Assembly: GCA_944381535.1 (NCBI GenBank)
Contig: CALWLN010000025.1
Coordinates: 24,085 to 88,084, forward strand
Direction of reading: 5' to 3'
Origin: an uncultured Lachnospiraceae bacterium
GTDB lineage: Bacteria > Bacillota > Clostridia > Lachnospirales > Lachnospiraceae
DNA length: 64,000 bases
The notes under the pieces were generated by a model. The model saw only the letters and a list, made by a program, of their open reading frames with translations, did no database searches and had not been told where the DNA came from. Shown piece by piece: positions 53,763 to 62,795 of the stretch. Both the position numbers and the translations under genes were made by a program. Numbering within the stretch: the stretch's first letter is position 1; every line of letters starts with the position of its first letter.

Positions 53763-54779
53763 GTGTACCGGATTGACGAAGTAGGTCAGATGGTGAGCGC
53801 GCTGCGCAGCGGCGCTTATGATCTTGCCCGCACTGTCCTTCTAATGCCCCAGGGCGGAGACGCCTGCCGCGGCTCCAACTACACCGGTGTTCTCAGACGA
53901 GCCGTAAAGGCGGCCGGCTTTCCCCAGATACCGGTGCTGTCTTTGAACGTCAAGGGGTTGGAAAAGGGGCAGCAAGTCCGCCTGGAGGCGGGAATGGTAT
54001 ACCGGGCGCTGTTCGGACTGATGTATGGCGATCTTCTGATGATTTTGCACAATCAAGTCCTGCCCTACGAGAGACATCCCGGCGATACCAAACGCTGTCT
54101 TGATACCTGGCGGCAGGCACTGGCAGCGGACTTAAAAACGGGCCGGCACCTGACTCTCAGACAGATGAAGAAAAATTTCATCCGCATTGCAGAGGACTTT
54201 GCTTCTATCCCCCGCACCGGACAGCAAAAGCAGAAAGTGGGTATCGTGGGGGAGCTTTATGTAAAATACTGCCATCTTGGCAACTGGAATCTGGAAGCTT
54301 TTCTGACAGAAGAAAATTGTGAATACTACATAAACGGCCTTTCCTGGTACGTGCTCTACTACATTGGCACCCATCTGACCACGGAGGGGGCTCTAAAGGG
54401 AAAGCTCTATGCCACAGGTCTTCGCTTTATCCGCAGCTTACAGCGGGTCATGGTAAATGCCATTCGAGGGGCCGGCTTTTTTTGCCTGGACGAATATTCT
54501 GCCTGGAAGCAAAATGCCGCAAACTATGTCTGTTTTCATTGCACCTCCGCCGACGGCTGGCTCATCGGCGCGGAGGCTGTAAATCTAATCAAAAGCGGCT
54601 ACCGCAAAGTGATCGGGATTCAGCCCTTCGACTGTATGCCCAATCACATCTGCGGCAGAGGCCTGTATCCCTCCCTGAACCGAAAACTAAAGGAGGGTCA
54701 CATCGTCAGTGTGGACGTGGATGCCAGCGGTTCTGAACTAAATGTCAGAAACCGGTTCAAAATGCTTTTGGATTTTTAG
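53763..54779 (+). CDS. Stand-alone protein resembling the C-terminal part of 2-hydroxyacyl-CoA dehydratase activase-related (DUF2229) proteins
   Basis: 338 residues. Matches typical blocks of the large activase-related proteins: LLMPQGGDACRGSNYTGVLR, VGIVGELYVKYCHLGNWNLE, and QPFDCMPNHICGRGLYPSLN. Cys residues in DACRGS and CMPNHICG are candidates for metal-cluster ligands. The partners normally fused upstream, about 1000 residues of activase and other domains, are absent. It has its own promoter and ribosome site (GGAGG nine bases before a GTG), so it looks like a real short gene, not a remnant. Role unknown; possibly radical-enzyme activation. It is convergent with the next gene, and their stops overlap by four bases. 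Confidence 0.7.
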   Translation: MYRIDEVGQMVSALRSGAYDLARTVLLMPQGGDACRGSNYTGVLRRAVKAAGFPQIPVLSLNVKGLEKGQQVRLEAGMVYRALFGLMYGDLLMILHNQVLPYERHPGDTKRCLDTWRQALAADLKTGRHLTLRQMKKNFIRIAEDFASIPRTGQQKQKVGIVGELYVKYCHLGNWNLEAFLTEENCEYYINGLSWYVLYYIGTHLTTEGALKGKLYATGLRFIRSLQRVMVNAIRGAGFFCLDEYSAWKQNAANYVCFHCTSADGWLIGAEAVNLIKSGYRKVIGIQPFDCMPNHICGRGLYPSLNRKLKEGHIVSVDVDASGSELNVRNRFKMLLDF

Positions 54780-56617
54780 AGATCGTCCAGATCAATGTAA
54801 TCAATATCGCCGTCTCCCTTTTTACGTCTCCCGGAGCCCTTGCCTTTTACAACAAAAAGCAGGATGTTAATAATGGCAAAGATGGCTACTACCAGAAGGA
54901 AAATCAGCACCGCCATAATGAGGCGGGAGGTGGATTTTTCTTCTCTGTAACGATTCTCCAGGTCTGTGTAAGCCTTGTTGAGGGCGTCTACATTTACCTG
55001 GGAATCCTCCTCTGCGGTGTAGCCGGTCTCATGATAGCGCTGCAGGCTTACGTCCGTTGTATCGTATTGATACCAGCCCGCTACACCGTCTCTGTTAACG
55101 CCGTAGAGTAAATAGAACTCAGCGGGCTCTGTGGCAGTTATGTCCTCATCGGAGTCTGTTTCTCCCAGACTCGCGCTTACAATTGTTCGGGTATTTGCCT
55201 CTTTGCTTGCAGTCCCCACGGTTGTCCCATCCGATTCCGTCGTATCCTCCGGGTCAGCCGTATTCTCCGGGTCTGTGGTATCCTCCGGGTCAGCCGTATC
55301 CTCCGGGTCTGTCATATTCTCCGGGTCGGCCGTATTCTCCATATCCTCTGGGGCGCTGGTATCGCTCTCGTCGGTTGCCGTGTCCTCTCCGCCTGCAAGG
55401 AGCTGATAACCGCTGACGGTAAACTCACGGACAGAGACGGACGTCTCTTGATAACCCGCGGGAATGTCCTCTTCCGCGAAGCTCGCCGGAAGCACCAGCA
55501 CATAGGTGTCACCCACCGCGATATTTATATAGGGAAAGAACTGGTCGTCAGTCTCATTGTAAAAATAGAATTGGCCTCCCTCGATATTCCCTGTTTCTTC
55601 ATCGGCTTCTTCCTCCACGGCAGTGGCCGGAATCAGATAAAACAAGGTTAAATCCTTATATGGGAAGGTATAGGCTTCCACCGTTTTGCCGTCGTAAGTC
55701 GTGGTTCCTCTTACAAATTCCTCCGGGAATTCCTCCTCGGGGAGGGTCTCACTGACTTGATAGGATACGCCGTCAATGAGGATTCCGGTATCTGTTGGCT
55801 CATCGGTGGGTTCCTCCGGTTCTTCCTCTGGTTCCTCCGCCGTACCGCCCCGGGTGACGGTGATGGTGTAGGTGGCGGTGGTGCCGTTCTCCGCTTTTAC
55901 CACAATTCGAATCGTATTCTCTCCCATTTGAAGGTCGGTATTTCCGGTGACGGATTCCACTGTGGCCTTGGAGTTGGAAACCTGGGCGTCCACGGCAATG
56001 CTTGTAACGTCCTCGCTTACGCTGGCCGTGTATTTCGTGGTAGAGCCTTTGAAAGTGGGCGACAATGTCCCTGGGGAAATCGTTAAGGATTTGAGGGAAT
56101 TGTCTGCGGATTTCTGGGGTTCCTGCGTTTCTCCGTCGGAAGTCTCCCCGCCTCCGGTGCTTCCGCCGGAGCTGCCGCCTGTACCGCCGCCGGAGGAGGC
56201 GGCGTTGTTGACGGTGACGGTGGCGCTGGAGCCACCGATACTAATTCCCTCCTGTGTCAGCACGTCATAGGCCTGTGTAACCGTTACAGATATGGTGGCC
56301 GTCCCCGGCGAAACCGCCGTGTATGTCACAGTCATAGAGTCCGTTCCACCGGCTGTCGGTTCCAAAATCAGAATCCCGTTCCCCTGCCCGGTATATTGCA
56401 GCGCTCCTCCATCACAGGATATATTTGCCTGAATCAGCGCATCCACATCCGCAGACGCGGTTACCGTCACCGATATGGTATCTCCAATATTGACACTGGA
56501 AGGCACTCCACTAATCGAAATACTTCCGCTGGCAGCATTTGTCATAATCGGAATTCCGCCAAGACCAAGCACTGCCGCCAGACACAAACTCGTCATATAT
56601 CTTAATAGCTTTTTCAT
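54776..56617 (-). CDS. Membrane-anchored cell-surface protein with cohesin-like and cadherin-like domains
   Basis: 613 residues. Signal peptide (about 1-30); a cohesin-like beta domain (SVNIGDTISVTVTASADVDA); a Gly/Ser linker (SSGGGTGGSSGGSTGGG); a cadherin-like beta sandwich (SLKSLTISPGTLSPTFKG, ending VTRGGT); acidic Pro-rich stretches, including a DPENTADPEDTT repeat; an unknown folded region; a C-terminal membrane segment (LIMAVLIFLLVVAIFAIINI) and a short basic then acidic cytoplasmic tail. The protein is probably exported and stays in the membrane. GGAGG before the ATG at 56617 supports the start. It begins 11 bases inside the end of the glucosaminidase gene, so they are coupled. Confidence 0.75.
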   Translation of the reverse strand: MKKLLRYMTSLCLAAVLGLGGIPIMTNAASGSISISGVPSSVNIGDTISVTVTASADVDALIQANISCDGGALQYTGQGNGILILEPTAGGTDSMTVTYTAVSPGTATISVTVTQAYDVLTQEGISIGGSSATVTVNNAASSGGGTGGSSGGSTGGGETSDGETQEPQKSADNSLKSLTISPGTLSPTFKGSTTKYTASVSEDVTSIAVDAQVSNSKATVESVTGNTDLQMGENTIRIVVKAENGTTATYTITVTRGGTAEEPEEEPEEPTDEPTDTGILIDGVSYQVSETLPEEEFPEEFVRGTTTYDGKTVEAYTFPYKDLTLFYLIPATAVEEEADEETGNIEGGQFYFYNETDDQFFPYINIAVGDTYVLVLPASFAEEDIPAGYQETSVSVREFTVSGYQLLAGGEDTATDESDTSAPEDMENTADPENMTDPEDTADPEDTTDPENTADPEDTTESDGTTVGTASKEANTRTIVSASLGETDSDEDITATEPAEFYLLYGVNRDGVAGWYQYDTTDVSLQRYHETGYTAEEDSQVNVDALNKAYTDLENRYREEKSTSRLIMAVLIFLLVVAIFAIINILLFVVKGKGSGRRKKGDGDIDYIDLDDL

Positions 56618-56627
56618 ACAACCTCCA

Positions 56628-58397
56628 TCAACTAATCGTCTCATATCCCATAATATGGCGCTTCATTTTCAGATAATCCAGCAGCTCCACACTGCCGTTG
56701 CCGTTTATATCCGCATTGGTAAACTGACTGTCCGACAGTTCCTGCAATCCCATAATATAGCGCTTCACAGACAATAAATCCAGCAGATCAATGGTCCCGT
56801 CTCCGTTAATGTCACCCTTTGAACCGCTTCCCTGGCGTACAATATTTATCGTGTAATCTCTGGTGGAACCATTCTGCGCTTTGCAGGTAATTTTTACAGA
56901 ATTGCTCCCATACTGCAGAGAAATGGTGCCGGTTCCCTGTACGCTGGAGGTAGAGGCAACCGCTTCCGCGCTCACTTTGACAGAAGAAACATCCTGCCCT
57001 ACAATCAGAGAATATTCTGTAGTCCCGCCGCTGAAAGACGGGGTCAGGTTATAACCGGACACAGATAGGGATTTCAGCCAGTTATTGGGATTTCCGTCGT
57101 TCGGAAGCGCACAGGCCGTTTCCGGCATATTGTTGTACACCGGAATCCGAAATATATATGCCTGATTCTTATTGGAATAGGCATTCGCCATGGTCGTTCC
57201 CTCACTGATTGCCGCCTGGACATTTGCCATATACTGATGACCGAACAGGCCGCTATACTCATTTACCACATTGAATTTCTGAAAATACAATGTATTCTGT
57301 CCCAAATTTATATACTTATCCGCCAGGTAGGTGGCTCCCCCCGTGATGGATTTGTATACACTGTTCCAACCGTTATCCTTGGCAGTCTGCAATCCTCTTT
57401 GATATAACACGGATTCCGGTGTTCCATATGCTCCGATATTAAAGTAATTGTAATACCCCACATACCCGTCATATTTCCCGCTGATCAAAGGACTTGTTCC
57501 GCTTGTCCCCTGCTCCTGTCTGCACCTGGCTGCCAGATGCGTGGGATTTACGTCTGCTCCCTGTCCCGCTTCCATAAAGACAGAAGCGTAGGTACGATTT
57601 TCGTCATCCCGCAAAGCGCCTGACATAAACGTTCCGGAAAGGACGTTGCTTACATCTGTTTCATTCTGATACGACGCATAATGTAAAGTCTCAAACTGAA
57701 AAATATTTGTCGCGTCCAAAAAGTTCCTTGGATCCATACAATAAGAAATCATAGCCGAAGAAGCCCCTACCCAGCTGCTGCCATCCAGGATCGTCCAGGT
57801 ATTCGTCGCCCAATCATAAGACCCGGAATCTGTTGATTTCTGCGCGTCGTTAGCGCTGGTTGAGACCATATTAATTCCCTTTACACTCTCCTTTGAAATC
57901 ACTGTGTTCCAATCCAACCCGGTAATCACCGGCTCAAATACCCAGTCGGGATACTGCTGATGCAACCGCTCCAACAGCACCGCGTAACTGCGTGGGAACC
58001 CTTTGCTCACCAGCTGGTTGATATAATCCTCATCCACAGGTGTCTGCTCTACGGTATGAACATTCGTAACATATCTTCCGGAAACATAACCGCTGCCGGA
58101 ACTATACTCTATCTGATACCAGGTTGTATTTCCACTGACAGATTCGCCTGTGACTGTGGCAAGAATCGTCACCTGGGAACCGTTGCTCAGCGACCCCAGC
58201 ATGGCAGATGATGTATTCGGTTCCTTACGAACCGTCAGGGTCCCGCCGCTGGTGCTGACAGTCCCCACCGTTACGGTAGCCGCATTACTGACAGTCACCC
58301 CCCGGTAGATTGCTCCGCCAAGAACCAAGCAAAACAAGAATATCCCGGCATATATCTTCAATTTTCGTTTCGTCTCCTGCTTCATGGCGTGTATCAT
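56628..58397 (-). CDS. Secreted glucosaminidase-type autolysin with SH3, cadherin-like and dockerin-like domains
   Basis: 589 residues. N-terminal membrane anchor or signal (about 10-30); SH3b domain (GTLTVRKEPNTSSAMLGSLS); glucosaminidase domain with DPRNFLDATNIFQFETLHY and PTHLAARCRQEQG (catalytic Glu expected there); cadherin-like beta sandwich (LKSLSVSGYNLTPSFSGGT); and two Ca2+-type EF-loop repeats, GDINGDGTIDLLDLLSVKRY and NADINGNGSVELLDYLKMKR, as in dockerins. It would cut peptidoglycan. The ATG at 58397 follows GGAGGG. A TTGACA/18/TATAAT promoter lies at 58442-58471. Confidence 0.85.
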   Translation of the reverse strand: MIHAMKQETKRKLKIYAGIFLFCLVLGGAIYRGVTVSNAATVTVGTVSTSGGTLTVRKEPNTSSAMLGSLSNGSQVTILATVTGESVSGNTTWYQIEYSSGSGYVSGRYVTNVHTVEQTPVDEDYINQLVSKGFPRSYAVLLERLHQQYPDWVFEPVITGLDWNTVISKESVKGINMVSTSANDAQKSTDSGSYDWATNTWTILDGSSWVGASSAMISYCMDPRNFLDATNIFQFETLHYASYQNETDVSNVLSGTFMSGALRDDENRTYASVFMEAGQGADVNPTHLAARCRQEQGTSGTSPLISGKYDGYVGYYNYFNIGAYGTPESVLYQRGLQTAKDNGWNSVYKSITGGATYLADKYINLGQNTLYFQKFNVVNEYSGLFGHQYMANVQAAISEGTTMANAYSNKNQAYIFRIPVYNNMPETACALPNDGNPNNWLKSLSVSGYNLTPSFSGGTTEYSLIVGQDVSSVKVSAEAVASTSSVQGTGTISLQYGSNSVKITCKAQNGSTRDYTINIVRQGSGSKGDINGDGTIDLLDLLSVKRYIMGLQELSDSQFTNADINGNGSVELLDYLKMKRHIMGYETIS

Positions 58398-58441
58398 ATC
58401 TGCCCTCCGCACATTGTTATCCGTTTCGTAAATTTAACCCT

Positions 58442-58749: not shown

Positions 58750-58755
58750 AGCGAA

Positions 58756-58810
58756 AGAGAGAGTGCTCCCTTTGGTCTGAATCCATGGCCAAAGGAGCCC
58801 TCTCTTTTTT
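58756..58810 (+). terminator. Terminator after rubredoxin
   Basis: Stem GAGAG..GCTCCCTTTGG / CCAAAGGAGCCCTCTC followed by TTTTTT. It also lies just after the stop of the fusion gene on the opposite strand. Confidence 0.85.
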
Positions 58811-58814
58811 CTTA

Positions 58815-61472
58815 TCACTCGGTCTTGCGCACAATCTCCCGCAGAGGCAGGATACTTCCCGGCGGCACCGACAGCTCATCCACACCCATGGCCAGAAATT
58901 CCCGGGTCAGCGCAGGGTCAGCGCCCAGCTCGCCGCAAATGCCGGCCCGGATTCCCGCCCTGTGGGCATTTTCCACCACCATGGATATCATGCGCAGCAC
59001 GGCCGGGTGATGAGGGTCATAAAACTCCTCCAGCCCGGCATTCCGCCGGTCCATGGCCAGTGTGTACTGGGTCAGATCGTTGGTTCCGATACTGAAGAAA
59101 TCCACTTCCCCGGCAAGCACATCACTGATAAGGGCCGCCGCCGGCGTCTCGATCATAATGCCCTGCTTGGGCCGGCCCCAGGGAATCCCCTGCCGGGTCA
59201 GTTCTTCCTCAGTCTGAGACACAAGCTCCCGAATCTGCTTTATCTCCTTTAGACTGCTGATCATCGGATACATAATCTTGATGTTTCCAAAAACACTGGC
59301 GCGAAGGAGAGCGCGAATCTGCGTCCGAAACAGTTCCGGACGGGTCAGACTGATACGGATTCCCCGCAGGCCAAGGGCCGGATTTTCCTCCTGGTCCATC
59401 TTAAGGTAATCACACTGCTTGTCGGCCCCCAGATCCAGGGTACGGATCACGACGGGCTTCCCCGCCATTTTCTCCGCCGCCTGCCTGTAAATCTGAAACT
59501 GCTCCTCCTCGGCAGGATAGCGGTCCCTCTCCATGAAAATAAATTCACTGCGGAAAAGTCCGATACCACCAGCGTCATTCTGTATGGCCGCGTCCAGTTC
59601 CTCCAGGCTTCCAATGTTTGCGTACAGCATGATTTTCCGTCCGTCAAGGGTAACGTTCTCCCTGCCCTTTAAAGACATCAGCCCCTTTTTCTTCTCCAGC
59701 TCCTCCTGCTGCCGGCGGGTAAACTCCGCCAAAGTATTCTCATCCGGCTCCACATACAGCCTGCCGGCACCGCCGTCCACGATTCCGGTTCTGCCCTCCA
59801 GATTGTCATCCAGGGAAAGGGGCGTGCCGGCCAGAGCCGGAATATCCAGAGTTCTGGCGAGAACGGCGGTGTGGGAATTGGCGGAGCCCCCCACCATCAC
59901 AAAGGCCAGCACCCTGTCCTTGTCAAGCTGCACCGTCTCAGACGGGGTCAAATCCCCGGCCACCACAATCGCAGGCTCCACCGCATCCGGACCGTCCGGT
60001 TCTTTCCCACCTAAAATGTCCAGGAGCTGCCGGGAAATATCCTTCACATCCTCCGCCCGCTCCCGCATATAGTCGTCCTCCACAGCGGCAACCTTCCGGG
60101 CAAAATCATCCCCGGCGGCAGCCACCGCATATTCCGCGTTGACCTTGCGGCTTAGGATGATCTGCTCCACGGCTTCGTTGTATTCCTCATCCATCAGAAT
60201 CATCTGATGGCCCTTGAAAATGGCGGCTCCCTCCTCTCCCGCGCTCTCCAGGGCCGTCTCATACAGCTTCTCAAGCTGGCGGATTCCGGCTTCCTTTGCC
60301 TGCCGGTAACGGGTTATCTCCCTTTGGGAATCCTCCGTTTTTAGGGGGTTCACCTGGGGCAGATTCTTTTTATAAACATGAATTTTGCCGATAGCAATGC
60401 CGCCGCATATGCTTTTTCCCTGATAGCAGCGTCCCTTCCGGTGTTCTTCCGCCTCTGTTCCCGCGGTCTTCCTGCATACAGTCTCATTTTCTACGTCCGC
60501 CGTCTTTCCGCAAAAAACTTCCGTCCCTGCTTCCGGCATCTGCCGGTAGACCGTCTCATTTTTTGCCTTCGCCACCTGCCGGTAGACTGTCTCAATCTCT
60601 TCCCCGGTGGCCAGATACTCGGAAAACGCGCTGGCGCTTCCTGCCGCCACTCCCATATGGAAAGCGAAACGATAATCCTGTTTTTTCAGCCAGCCCGCCA
60701 TAAAGCCTGCCACCATGGAATCCCCTGCGCCGACGCCGTTTACCAAGGTTCCCTCCGGCGCCGGGGCTTCGTACACCTTTCCGTCCTCCGCAAGCAGCAC
60801 GGCGCCCTCCCCGGCCATAGAGATCAGCACGTTTCGGGCTCCCTGCTTCTGAAGCCTTTTTCCGTAAGGAACCACGTCCCTTCGGCTTGAAAATTCCACG
60901 CCAAAAATCTCCCCCAGTTCCTGGTGATTGGGCTTTATCAGAAAGGGATGGTACGGGAGCACGTTCATCAAAAGTTCCTTTGCGGCATCCACCACAATCT
61001 GTACCCCTTTCCCCCTTAGGCGCTCCATGATTCTCTGATAAGTGTCGGCAGACATGGAGGCCGGAATGCTTCCCGCCAGAAATAAGACATCGCCGCAAGA
61101 AAGTTCCTCAAGCTGCGCCATCAGCCGCTCCACCTTTTCCTCTCCAATCCGGGGACCCTGGCCGTTAATCTCGGTACCCTCAATGGATTTCAATTTTAGA
61201 TTGATCCGGGTACATCCTTCCGCAAGGGGGATAAATCCGCTTTGAACGCCCATCTGTCCAAGCTGCCGCGCAAGCTCCTCTCCGGTAAAGCCCGCCACAA
61301 ATCCCAGGGCGGTACTCTCCACACCAAGATTCTTAAGGACAATGGACACATTGATTCCCTTCCCCCCCGGAAGCAGCTGCTCCGACTGGGAGCGGTTGGT
61401 CCGCCCCAGCCTGAAATCCTCCACGGATACCACGTAATCCAGGGACGGATTAAAGGTGACTGTATAAATCAT
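58815..61472 (-). CDS. Fusion of 1-phosphofructokinase (FruK-like) and PTS enzyme I
   Basis: 885 residues in one frame. Residues 1-290 are a PfkB sugar kinase of the 1-phosphofructokinase type: TVTFNPSLDYVVSVEDFRLG, LLPGGKGINVSIVLKNLG and GVGAGDSMVAGF (base Asp251). Residues 292-350 form a Lys/Glu-rich linker with ETVYRQ, NETVYRQ and NETVCRK. Residues 355-885 are a complete enzyme I: His534 in GGSANSHTAVLARTLDIPAL, GIGLFRSEFIFM, RTLDLGADKQ, GTNDLTQYTLAMDR and Cys846 in GICGELGAD. EI takes phosphate from PEP and passes it to HPr; FruK makes fructose-1,6-bisphosphate. No HPr or sugar-specific PTS gene is nearby. Both halves keep their key residues. Confidence 0.88.
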   Translation of the reverse strand: MIYTVTFNPSLDYVVSVEDFRLGRTNRSQSEQLLPGGKGINVSIVLKNLGVESTALGFVAGFTGEELARQLGQMGVQSGFIPLAEGCTRINLKLKSIEGTEINGQGPRIGEEKVERLMAQLEELSCGDVLFLAGSIPASMSADTYQRIMERLRGKGVQIVVDAAKELLMNVLPYHPFLIKPNHQELGEIFGVEFSSRRDVVPYGKRLQKQGARNVLISMAGEGAVLLAEDGKVYEAPAPEGTLVNGVGAGDSMVAGFMAGWLKKQDYRFAFHMGVAAGSASAFSEYLATGEEIETVYRQVAKAKNETVYRQMPEAGTEVFCGKTADVENETVCRKTAGTEAEEHRKGRCYQGKSICGGIAIGKIHVYKKNLPQVNPLKTEDSQREITRYRQAKEAGIRQLEKLYETALESAGEEGAAIFKGHQMILMDEEYNEAVEQIILSRKVNAEYAVAAAGDDFARKVAAVEDDYMRERAEDVKDISRQLLDILGGKEPDGPDAVEPAIVVAGDLTPSETVQLDKDRVLAFVMVGGSANSHTAVLARTLDIPALAGTPLSLDDNLEGRTGIVDGGAGRLYVEPDENTLAEFTRRQQEELEKKKGLMSLKGRENVTLDGRKIMLYANIGSLEELDAAIQNDAGGIGLFRSEFIFMERDRYPAEEEQFQIYRQAAEKMAGKPVVIRTLDLGADKQCDYLKMDQEENPALGLRGIRISLTRPELFRTQIRALLRASVFGNIKIMYPMISSLKEIKQIRELVSQTEEELTRQGIPWGRPKQGIMIETPAAALISDVLAGEVDFFSIGTNDLTQYTLAMDRRNAGLEEFYDPHHPAVLRMISMVVENAHRAGIRAGICGELGADPALTREFLAMGVDELSVPPGSILPLREIVRKTE

Positions 61473-61506: not shown

Positions 61507-62700
61507 TCATAGCCTGCTCCTCTGCCTCGCCATTTCGTAAATCGCCAGCATATCCTCCTCATAGAGTACTTTCGCCGAGCCTTTCCGGCCGCCTGCGGAG
61601 GCGGCACATTTTTTCGCCATCAATTCCAGCTCCTCCGCTCCGGGATGGATTCCCAGTTCCTCTAAAGAGGTAGGCATGCGCAGGCTTCGGAAAAATTCCT
61701 CCACGGCTTCGATTCCCTTTAAAGCGGTCTCCTCCCGGCTGCCGGTATCCGAAATGCCCATCACCCGGATTGCAAACCGGTAAAAGCGATGCAGGCAGTC
61801 CCGGTACACATACCTCGCCCAGCTTCCCCAGACCGCCGCCAGGCCCGCGCCGTGGGCCACATCATAAAGCCCTCCCAGCTCATGCTCCAGGCCATGGCAG
61901 GCAAAATCCCCGCCGTCACCGCCGCAGCCGGTCAGATCGTTATGCGAAAGGCTTCCCGCCCACATCATCTCCGCCCGGGCTTCGTAATTTCGCGGGTCCT
62001 CCAGGAGAATCCTGGCGTTGGCGATAACGGTCCTCATCAGCGCCTCGGCAATACTGTCGGTAATCTCCATGGTCTCTGCGGAGGTAAAATACCTCTCCAT
62101 GGTGTGCATGAGAATATCGGTGCAGCCGCAGGCGGTCTGATGGGGCGGCAGAGTCATGGTAAGCTCCGGGTTCATCACCGCAAATCGAGGACGACAAAGG
62201 TCGTCGCGATAGCCTCTTTTTATCCAGCCATCCTCGTTGGTGATGACAGAGGAATTGCTCATCTCACTGCCGGAGGCCGCAATGGTCAGCACCACGCCCA
62301 GAGGCAGACAGGACAGCGGTTTCCTTTTTCTGGCATAGAAATCCCAGACGTCGCCCTCCCCCGCTGCGCCATAGCCGATGGCTTTGGCGGAATCGATGAC
62401 GCTGCCGCCGCCCACGGCAAGGATAAAATCCACCTGTTCCTCCTTTGCCATGGCAATCCCCTGATACACCAGCGACAATCTGGGATTTGGCACCACGCCT
62501 CCCAGTTCCACCCAGTCGATTTCCTGCTCCCTCAGAGACTCCTTCACCCTGTCCAGTAAACCGGAACGGACCACGCTGCCGCCCCCATAATGAAGCAGCA
62601 CCTTCTTTCCTCCCTGCTCCTTGATCAGCGCCCCTGTCTGCGCCTCCGTATTCCTACCGAAAACCACCTTTGTGGGGGTGTAATAGGTAAAATTCTGCAT
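61507..62700 (-). CDS. Iron-containing alcohol dehydrogenase
   Basis: 397 residues. NAD(P) site GGGSVIDSAKAIGYGA; metal ligands in the Asp/His region with DILMHTMERYFT, GLEHELGGLYDVAHGAGLAA (conserved His residues). Resembles BDH/YqhD-type dehydrogenases that reduce aldehydes. ATG at 62700 fits the family start; longer frame at 62754 adds a non-native stretch. Ribosome site is weak. It follows the fusion gene by 34 bases and may be co-transcribed with it. Confidence 0.9.
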   Translation of the reverse strand: MQNFTYYTPTKVVFGRNTEAQTGALIKEQGGKKVLLHYGGGSVVRSGLLDRVKESLREQEIDWVELGGVVPNPRLSLVYQGIAMAKEEQVDFILAVGGGSVIDSAKAIGYGAAGEGDVWDFYARKRKPLSCLPLGVVLTIAASGSEMSNSSVITNEDGWIKRGYRDDLCRPRFAVMNPELTMTLPPHQTACGCTDILMHTMERYFTSAETMEITDSIAEALMRTVIANARILLEDPRNYEARAEMMWAGSLSHNDLTGCGGDGGDFACHGLEHELGGLYDVAHGAGLAAVWGSWARYVYRDCLHRFYRFAIRVMGISDTGSREETALKGIEAVEEFFRSLRMPTSLEELGIHPGAEELELMAKKCAASAGGRKGSAKVLYEEDMLAIYEMARQRSRL

Positions 62701-62795
62701 CTGCCGTATACCTTGACCTTTCCGTGAATATTTCTGAAAATGGTAACAGCCCAAATACTGAACTGCTACGAAAAATGTTCTTTTTACTATTATAT

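Follow-up and report, generated by a model that had tools for sequence, protein, structure and literature searches.

Enzyme I (EI) and HPr of the PTS are found either as stand-alone polypeptides or fused, in most cases to an IIA domain, and fruB products that carry IIA-Fru are as a rule linked to fruA and fruK, according to the available part of PMC2405797. The same part describes EI-Ntr, which carries a GAF domain, and EI without PTS transporters. A fusion of 1-phosphofructokinase (FruK) to EI is not named in the available parts of PMC2405797, PMC8100219, or PMC12203962.

We examined such a fusion in the genome of an uncultured Lachnospiraceae bacterium (G000), a 93%-complete draft of 241 contigs, within a 64,000-nucleotide stretch of DNA referred to here as the window. 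The original prediction, made from the letters of the window, knew of no described example, and our search of the literature likewise found no published FruK-EI fusion. Barabote and Saier (2005), cited in PMC8100219, are said to have surveyed fusions among PTS proteins.

Kinase and EI halves of one reading frame

The fusion gene (58815..61472, minus strand, like every feature within it given below) is one reading frame that runs from an ATG at 61472 down to 58815 and encodes 885 amino acids with zero internal stops. Its FruK part, residues 1-300 (60573..61472), matches the NCBIfam family TIGR03828 (1-phosphofructokinase) at full length, over residues 2-300 and profile positions 1-302 of 305, with 323.9 bits against a curated cut-off of 292. 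Both the GGKGxN and the GAGD motifs are present. A motif scan placed them as GGKGIN at residues 36-41 (61350..61367) and as GAGDS, typical of the PfkB family, at residues 248-252 (60717..60731); we assume that both have a functional role in the kinase. By sequence, the closest solved kinases are the fructose-1-phosphate kinases 2jg5 and 2abq.

The EI part, residues 349-885 (58818..60428), matches TIGR01417 (PTS_I_fam) over residues 351-884 and profile positions 2-539 of 565, with 546.7 bits against a curated cut-off of 341.7. Pfam matches on the whole product were PfkB and all three EI domains, PEP-utilisers_N, PEP-utilizers, and PEP-utilizers_C (PF05524, PF00391, PF02896). His534 (59871..59873) aligned to the SHTS-type active-site block of solved EI chains and is presumably the phosphorylated histidine, and Cys846 (58935..58937), aligned within GICGELG of the same chains, is taken to be the active-site cysteine. 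The RTLDLG, IETPAA, and GTNDLTQY blocks of the PEP-binding part also align with solved EI chains, and the catalytic residues are kept. Neither an HPr nor an EIIA domain was among the Pfam matches, which places the chain outside the MTP/FPr proteins, and the 25 NCBIfam matches listed, of 29, included none outside the kinase and EI parts. Judging from sequence, the FruK half is predicted to carry out ATP-dependent phosphorylation of fructose-1-phosphate to fructose-1,6-bisphosphate (FBP), and the EI half PEP-dependent phosphorylation of HPr. The single in-frame chain of an intact FruK-like kinase and an intact EI that had been predicted, with its GAGD motif, His534, and Cys846, was thus borne out by the reading frame, the domain search, and the motif scan.

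Upstream of the fusion by 34 nt lies a gene for an iron-containing alcohol dehydrogenase (61507..62754, minus strand; Pfam Fe-ADH). The second genome with the fusion, G051 (locus L056), has an 84% identical Fe-ADH at the same place, and a search at E 1e-5 through the ORFs of the remaining 113 loci that we examined gave no match. The two genes possibly form an operon. A weak terminator-like site, recognized by consensus only, follows the fusion gene (58754..58773, minus strand); the region has four such sites, below the mean of 6.1 in shuffled sequence and so not above chance in number. Further downstream, the ORFs at 56628-58412 and 54776-56644 encode cadherin-like domains, the first also SH3 and dockerin domains, and a promoter matching the sigma-70 consensus at 12 of 12 positions (58471-58442, minus strand) lies 29 nt before the ORF at 56628-58412.

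Linker, selection, and spread of the architecture

G051 belongs to the same genus as G000 and carries the same fusion in one 904-amino-acid frame with 71% protein identity. In the window protein the linker takes up residues 301-348 (60429..60572). Three ETVYRQ-like repeats had been predicted here and are present, as ETVYRQ at residues 294-299 and 306-311 and ETVCRK at 330-335. At the DNA level, a repeat search found three copies of a 36-nt direct repeat (60456-60491, 60528-60563, and 60564-60599; overall 60456..60599, minus strand). The copies have diverged, at 69% and 78% identity to the reference copy; that at 60564-60599 lies mostly inside the conserved FruK tail, and the two others lie in the linker. 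Tandem Repeats Finder at a minimum score of 30 reported no array in the linker. The G051 linker has different repeat units, spaced at 33 and 39 nt, and the two linkers share 23% identity over 44 aligned codons. Because the spacings in the two linkers (36, 72, 33, and 39 nt) are all multiples of three, both linkers appear to have lengthened through in-frame duplication.

An AlphaFold2 model of the fusion had a mean pLDDT of 73.7 and a pTM of 0.45, with pLDDT below 50 at residues 304-346, and this low-confidence stretch fits a disordered tether. The alignment given to AlphaFold2 had four rows, three of them fruK-EI neighbors read through the stop; other short stretches of the model also fall below a pLDDT of 50, and the placement of the halves is not interpretable. 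In the window, the only in-frame start codons between codons 286 and 365 are GTG300 and ATG312, with none at the EI junction, so EI seems bound to be made as part of the fused chain, barring use of ATG312 or GTG300. G051 has an ATG at codon 349, the start of EI, following GGAGGAAAGCCGCAGG with GGAGG upstream, a possible internal ribosome site; free EI could therefore be made in G051.

Between G000 and G051, dN/dS (Nei-Gojobori) was 0.17 over the 300 codons of FruK, 0.27 over the 537 of EI, and 0.68 over 44 linker codons. These values indicate that both enzyme halves are maintained under purifying selection. We also counted changes at conserved positions, defined for EI as the 200 positions with at least 95% conservation across 47 fruA-linked EIs and for FruK as 103 positions from 51 fruA-linked rows. 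EI is changed at 26 of the 200 positions in the window and at 30 in G051 (fruA-linked EIs, median 1, maximum 40), and FruK at 1 and 4 of 103, respectively (fruA-linked, median 0, maximum 15). EIs that adjoin fruK without fruA range from 0 changed positions (G102) to 81 (L090). The EI/FruK distance ratio was 1.32 in the window and 1.26 in G051, compared with medians of 0.89 across 42 fruA-linked rows (range 0.73-1.35) and 0.98 across 15 neighbor rows (range 0.72-1.26).

To survey the architecture, we searched 397 genomes of the family, where only G000 and G051 matched the whole query among the matches listed; a weaker fusion could be missed among matches beyond those. A scan of named genomes covered at least 80 loci, in which the window's own records may be absent; 57 of 80 had both FruK and EI, and none had the two in one frame. 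Across the 114 loci with frames examined (16 + 80 + 18), some of which share a genome (for example, L051 with L109 and L120 with L187), both proteins were encoded in 83, and a single frame was found only in that of G051. The original prediction had called for a search across Lachnospiraceae, and among the genomes checked the architecture proved not to be widespread but limited to G000 and G051, in one genus.

Several candidates were discarded along the way. Apparent fusions in G150, G152, and G006, suggested by open-frame lengths, were rejected since stop codons separate fruK from EI in their DNA, and we therefore classified loci solely from their own reading frames. An open-frame length of 1484 had suggested another fusion in G201, whose locus shows EI without fruK. 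A structure-based alignment of 59 rows laid EI rows onto FruK and was set aside.

Gene order in relatives and origin of the fusion

In relatives, the operon order is fruK-fruA-HPr-ptsI-fruR, or the same with fruR first. A near-full fruA was present in 54 of the 83 loci with both genes. In 15 of the 83, ptsI comes immediately after fruK, without an intact fruA or HPr gene in between (L044, L054, L061, L062, L069, L071, L075, L078, L081, L090, L096, L099, L102, L107, and L185). Within this group, L044 (G102) keeps a remnant matching fruA residues 1-59 between fruK and EI, and in L185 (G153), L075, and L081 fruK and ptsI share 4 nt (ATGA), read in different frames. The relatives thus keep likely intermediate steps, with the permease present, a permease remnant, genes touching, genes overlapping, and genes fused.

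The genus of G000 comprises six genomes. In addition to the two with fused genes and G153 with overlapping ones, G152 has fruK-HPr-EI, preceded by the end of a mannitol-type EII gene and by a dehydrogenase gene, with EI split over two contigs; G150 has a fruK without its first 38 residues, followed by HPr and EI; and G151 has EI and no close FruK. We built trees of EI (84 rows; quick method, LG+G4) and FruK (79 rows), after dropping ten loci (near copies, fragments, and broken genes), EI matches below 300 bits, and FruK matches below 200 bits; FruK-only loci were left out except L119, L122, L126, and L134. On the EI tree, the two fusions group together with a support of 99, with G153 at 93, and with L075 at 99. 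On the FruK tree, the fused pair has a support of 97, or 83 with G153, and L075 is not placed with the fusions. The EIs of G150, G151, and G152 group with L061 (support 100), apart from the fusions and G153, which indicates that the genus holds two EI lineages.

The neighbor state changes 12 times on the EI tree, where the label takes in L093 (part of fruA kept) and leaves out L081, and at least 9 of these changes are forced by well-supported branches. On the FruK tree it also changes 12 times, at least 8 of them forced. Repeated fruA loss is the simplest reading of these counts, which would look the same for loss and for gain. Taken together with gene order, we consider it likely that the gene encodes a true bifunctional FruK-EI protein made by operon contraction. 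The fruA and HPr genes would have been lost first, and fruK and ptsI would then have overlapped and finally fused, in the simplest case through one event in a common ancestor of G000 and G051. One fusion event from overlapping genes would suffice; two separate fusions from overlapping genes are possible.

Some loci showed other arrangements. The L075 record (JAMPGV010000036.1) is titled Muribaculum sp. (Bacteroidota), and its EI falls among Lachnospiraceae sequences; the contig is probably mislabeled or misbinned. In L185 (7265-9010, plus strand; G153), EI has an inserted glycine-rich repeat (GQTGILGGSFSQAGIPGGSSGQTGILGG), in style like the repeats of the fusion linker. A second operon type has a mannitol-type EII before fruK-HPr-ptsI, or before fruK-ptsI in L081, and occurs in L068, L081, L085, L088, L094, L117, L137, L183, and L193, with the EII checked against protein families in just two of them, L137 and L193. 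A dehydrogenase ORF of similar kind is nearby in all seven of these loci with ORFs listed, and those of L088 and L117 match zinc-type dehydrogenase families below the cut-offs. The FruK of this operon type may serve a sugar other than fructose. In L193 (7702-10314, minus strand; G167:C26), the mannitol-type EII (PRK15083, 683 bits) is in one frame with a FruK that is without about its first 44 residues and scores 257.7 bits against the cut-off of 292. This kinase is probably broken, and its reading frame points to another rearrangement of the fruK gene neighborhood.

The host PTS and the possible role of the fusion

The original prediction had asked whether a separate ptsI exists in the genome, and none was found in the G000 draft. 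The second PEP-utilizers_C match proved to be a pyruvate phosphate dikinase (TIGR01828, 1399 bits), which leaves the fusion as the sole EI detected in G000; a protein search of the G051 genome likewise showed no second EI. Among EII and EIIA classes, we searched for PTS_EIIC, EIIA_2, and EIIA-man, and none of these three families was present in the 93%-complete draft. G000 has five HPr-family matches, of which that on contig C53 has LHLRPAG, the HxRP site. The other four HPr-like genes (G000:C25:9466-9702, C211:16991-17230, C194:6063-6218, and C39:17309-17485) have no HxRP; C25 has a His at the active-site place and no Arg (EHKNPIA), and the other three are without the His. The C211 gene adjoins a WhiA-like gene, like Crh. 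G000 also has three PFK-family genes and another two FruK-like kinases, with identities of 33% and 30%; the cell would thus not have to rely on the fusion to form FBP.

PTS_EIIC was absent from four of the six genomes of the genus (G000, G051, G150, and G151), and G152 and G153 had a single match apiece. Among the 15 genomes in which EI immediately follows fruK, 8 had no PTS_EIIC match (L044, L054, L061, L069, L071, L075, L078, and L090) and 7 had at least one (L062, L081, L096, L099, L102, L107, and L185), although completeness values, which bear on these absences, are missing for most of the 15. If the L075 genome (G404) is misbinned, its PTS_EIIC absence would be meaningless. In addition, L081 has a mannitol-type EII upstream of fruK-ptsI, G370 (fruK-HPr-EI) has one PTS_EIIC match, and G397, with fruK not on the contig, has none. 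All 12 full-operon genomes have PTS_EIIC, but fruA itself matches PF02378, so they are no control for EIIC loss.

The reading we favor is a bifunctional protein with tethered halves, in a PTS that is poor in permeases. The FruK half would convert fructose-1-phosphate and ATP to FBP, and the EI half would transfer phosphate from PEP onto His534 and then to HPr, most likely that at C53. FruK would obtain its substrate by a route other than FruA, and its true substrate could be another sugar phosphate. The reactions of FruK and EI have no common intermediate, so the tether would give a fixed ratio and co-location and not channeling; the halves would act side by side at 1:1 with no intermediate passed. 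As no EII was detected, the EI-HPr relay is most likely regulatory and not for sugar import. The original prediction went further and proposed that the fusion would couple the first PTS phosphotransfer step to formation of FBP, a known glycolytic signal. Coupling of PTS uptake to FBP formation is not supported by a genome in which the three EII and EIIA families were not found, nor by two reactions that share no intermediate.

We weighed three other explanations against this reading. An assembly or sequencing artefact, in which a lost stop or a frameshift joined neighboring genes, could be suspected from a draft of 241 contigs whose next relatives have fruK and EI as near neighbors or overlapping. 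It is very improbable, since G051, the assembly of a separate species, carries the same single frame with a linker of other length and sequence; the join is therefore not an assembly error. The in-frame repeat spacings and the purifying selection on both halves also argue against it, and the region near 60,420-60,600, where a stop or frameshift had been feared, is open in the assembly. We conclude that in G000 and G051, two species of the same genus, two complete enzymes are genuinely joined in one chain. The changes in EI at conserved positions, far more numerous than in FruK, and its high distance ratio suggest that EI may have lost or changed function. With the EII partners not found, FruK could then be the selected function and the attached EI a decaying passenger. 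We regard this as unlikely, because the EI dN/dS remains low, the full catalytic set is kept with no stops, and an HPr with the HxRP site is retained in the genome. Moreover, G151 retains EI with no close FruK match in its genome (best PfkB 27%), and G150 has EI beside a truncated fruK, so EI can persist without FruK, although the EIs of these two genomes sit elsewhere on the EI tree.

The third alternative is functional coupling of the two halves. FBP would be made beside the phosphorelay, and sugar-phosphate flux would tune HPr phosphorylation, for example through the FBP-activated HPr kinase; FBP activates HPr kinase in Firmicutes. The 15 loci with fruK directly before ptsI and no intact fruA between them speak for coupling, and their occurrence in 8 genomes with zero PTS_EIIC suggests that the fruK-ptsI link can outlive the permease. 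The N-terminal GAF domain of EI-Ntr, described in part in PMC2405797, sets a precedent for EI with a domain added at its N-terminus. However, besides the lack of a shared intermediate, the linker is long, diverged, and modeled at low confidence, and simple loss of fruA from the operon leaves the same fruK-ptsI adjacency. The loci were also found with a query holding both proteins, which favors such neighbors, and the 8 genomes include the possibly misbinned G404. We therefore consider coupling doubtful. The stronger form, in which FruK-EI would be an inbuilt metabolic coupler of a PTS that has given up sugar import and its kinase half would tune the transfer of phosphate from EI to HPr, seems equally speculative. 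If it were true, the FruK half would sense or set the level of fructose-phosphate and FBP, in a regulatory relay without permeases, and fruK beside ptsI without fruA would be an unfused version of the same device. Since fruK and ptsI often occur together without a fructose permease, the role of EI and HPr in permease-free Firmicutes becomes a testable question.

Compared with known systems, the tethered FruK-EI protein resembles the MTPs (FruB/FPr), in which EI is one module of a longer chain in a fructose operon, as the available part of PMC2405797 describes. In MTPs, HPr and/or EI are fused with IIA domains or with one another, whereas the fusion joins EI to a sugar-phosphate kinase outside the relay and has no HPr or IIA domain. 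EI-Ntr differs in being proteobacterial and in that its GAF domain, a sensor domain, is not an enzyme, whereas the fusion adds a complete kinase; both carry, at the N-terminus of EI, an additional domain that is not part of the phosphorelay (PMC2405797, in part). Where EI fusions in that part of PMC2405797 join HPr, IIA relay parts, or GAF, the partner here is a metabolic kinase. Each half passes the same family cut-offs (TIGR01417, TIGR03828) and keeps the same motifs as the separate PtsI and FruK of Firmicutes, but they form one chain, which in the window has no start codon at the EI junction. Like G000, group R (PMC2405797, in part) and the incomplete PTS of Brucella (PMC2937029) keep EI and HPr without detected EII permeases; G000, a draft searched for a subset of EII/EIIA classes, differs in having a Firmicutes-type EI fused to FruK. 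FruK-EI is a genuine architecture of two known enzymes, undescribed as far as searched, and not a new kind of system.
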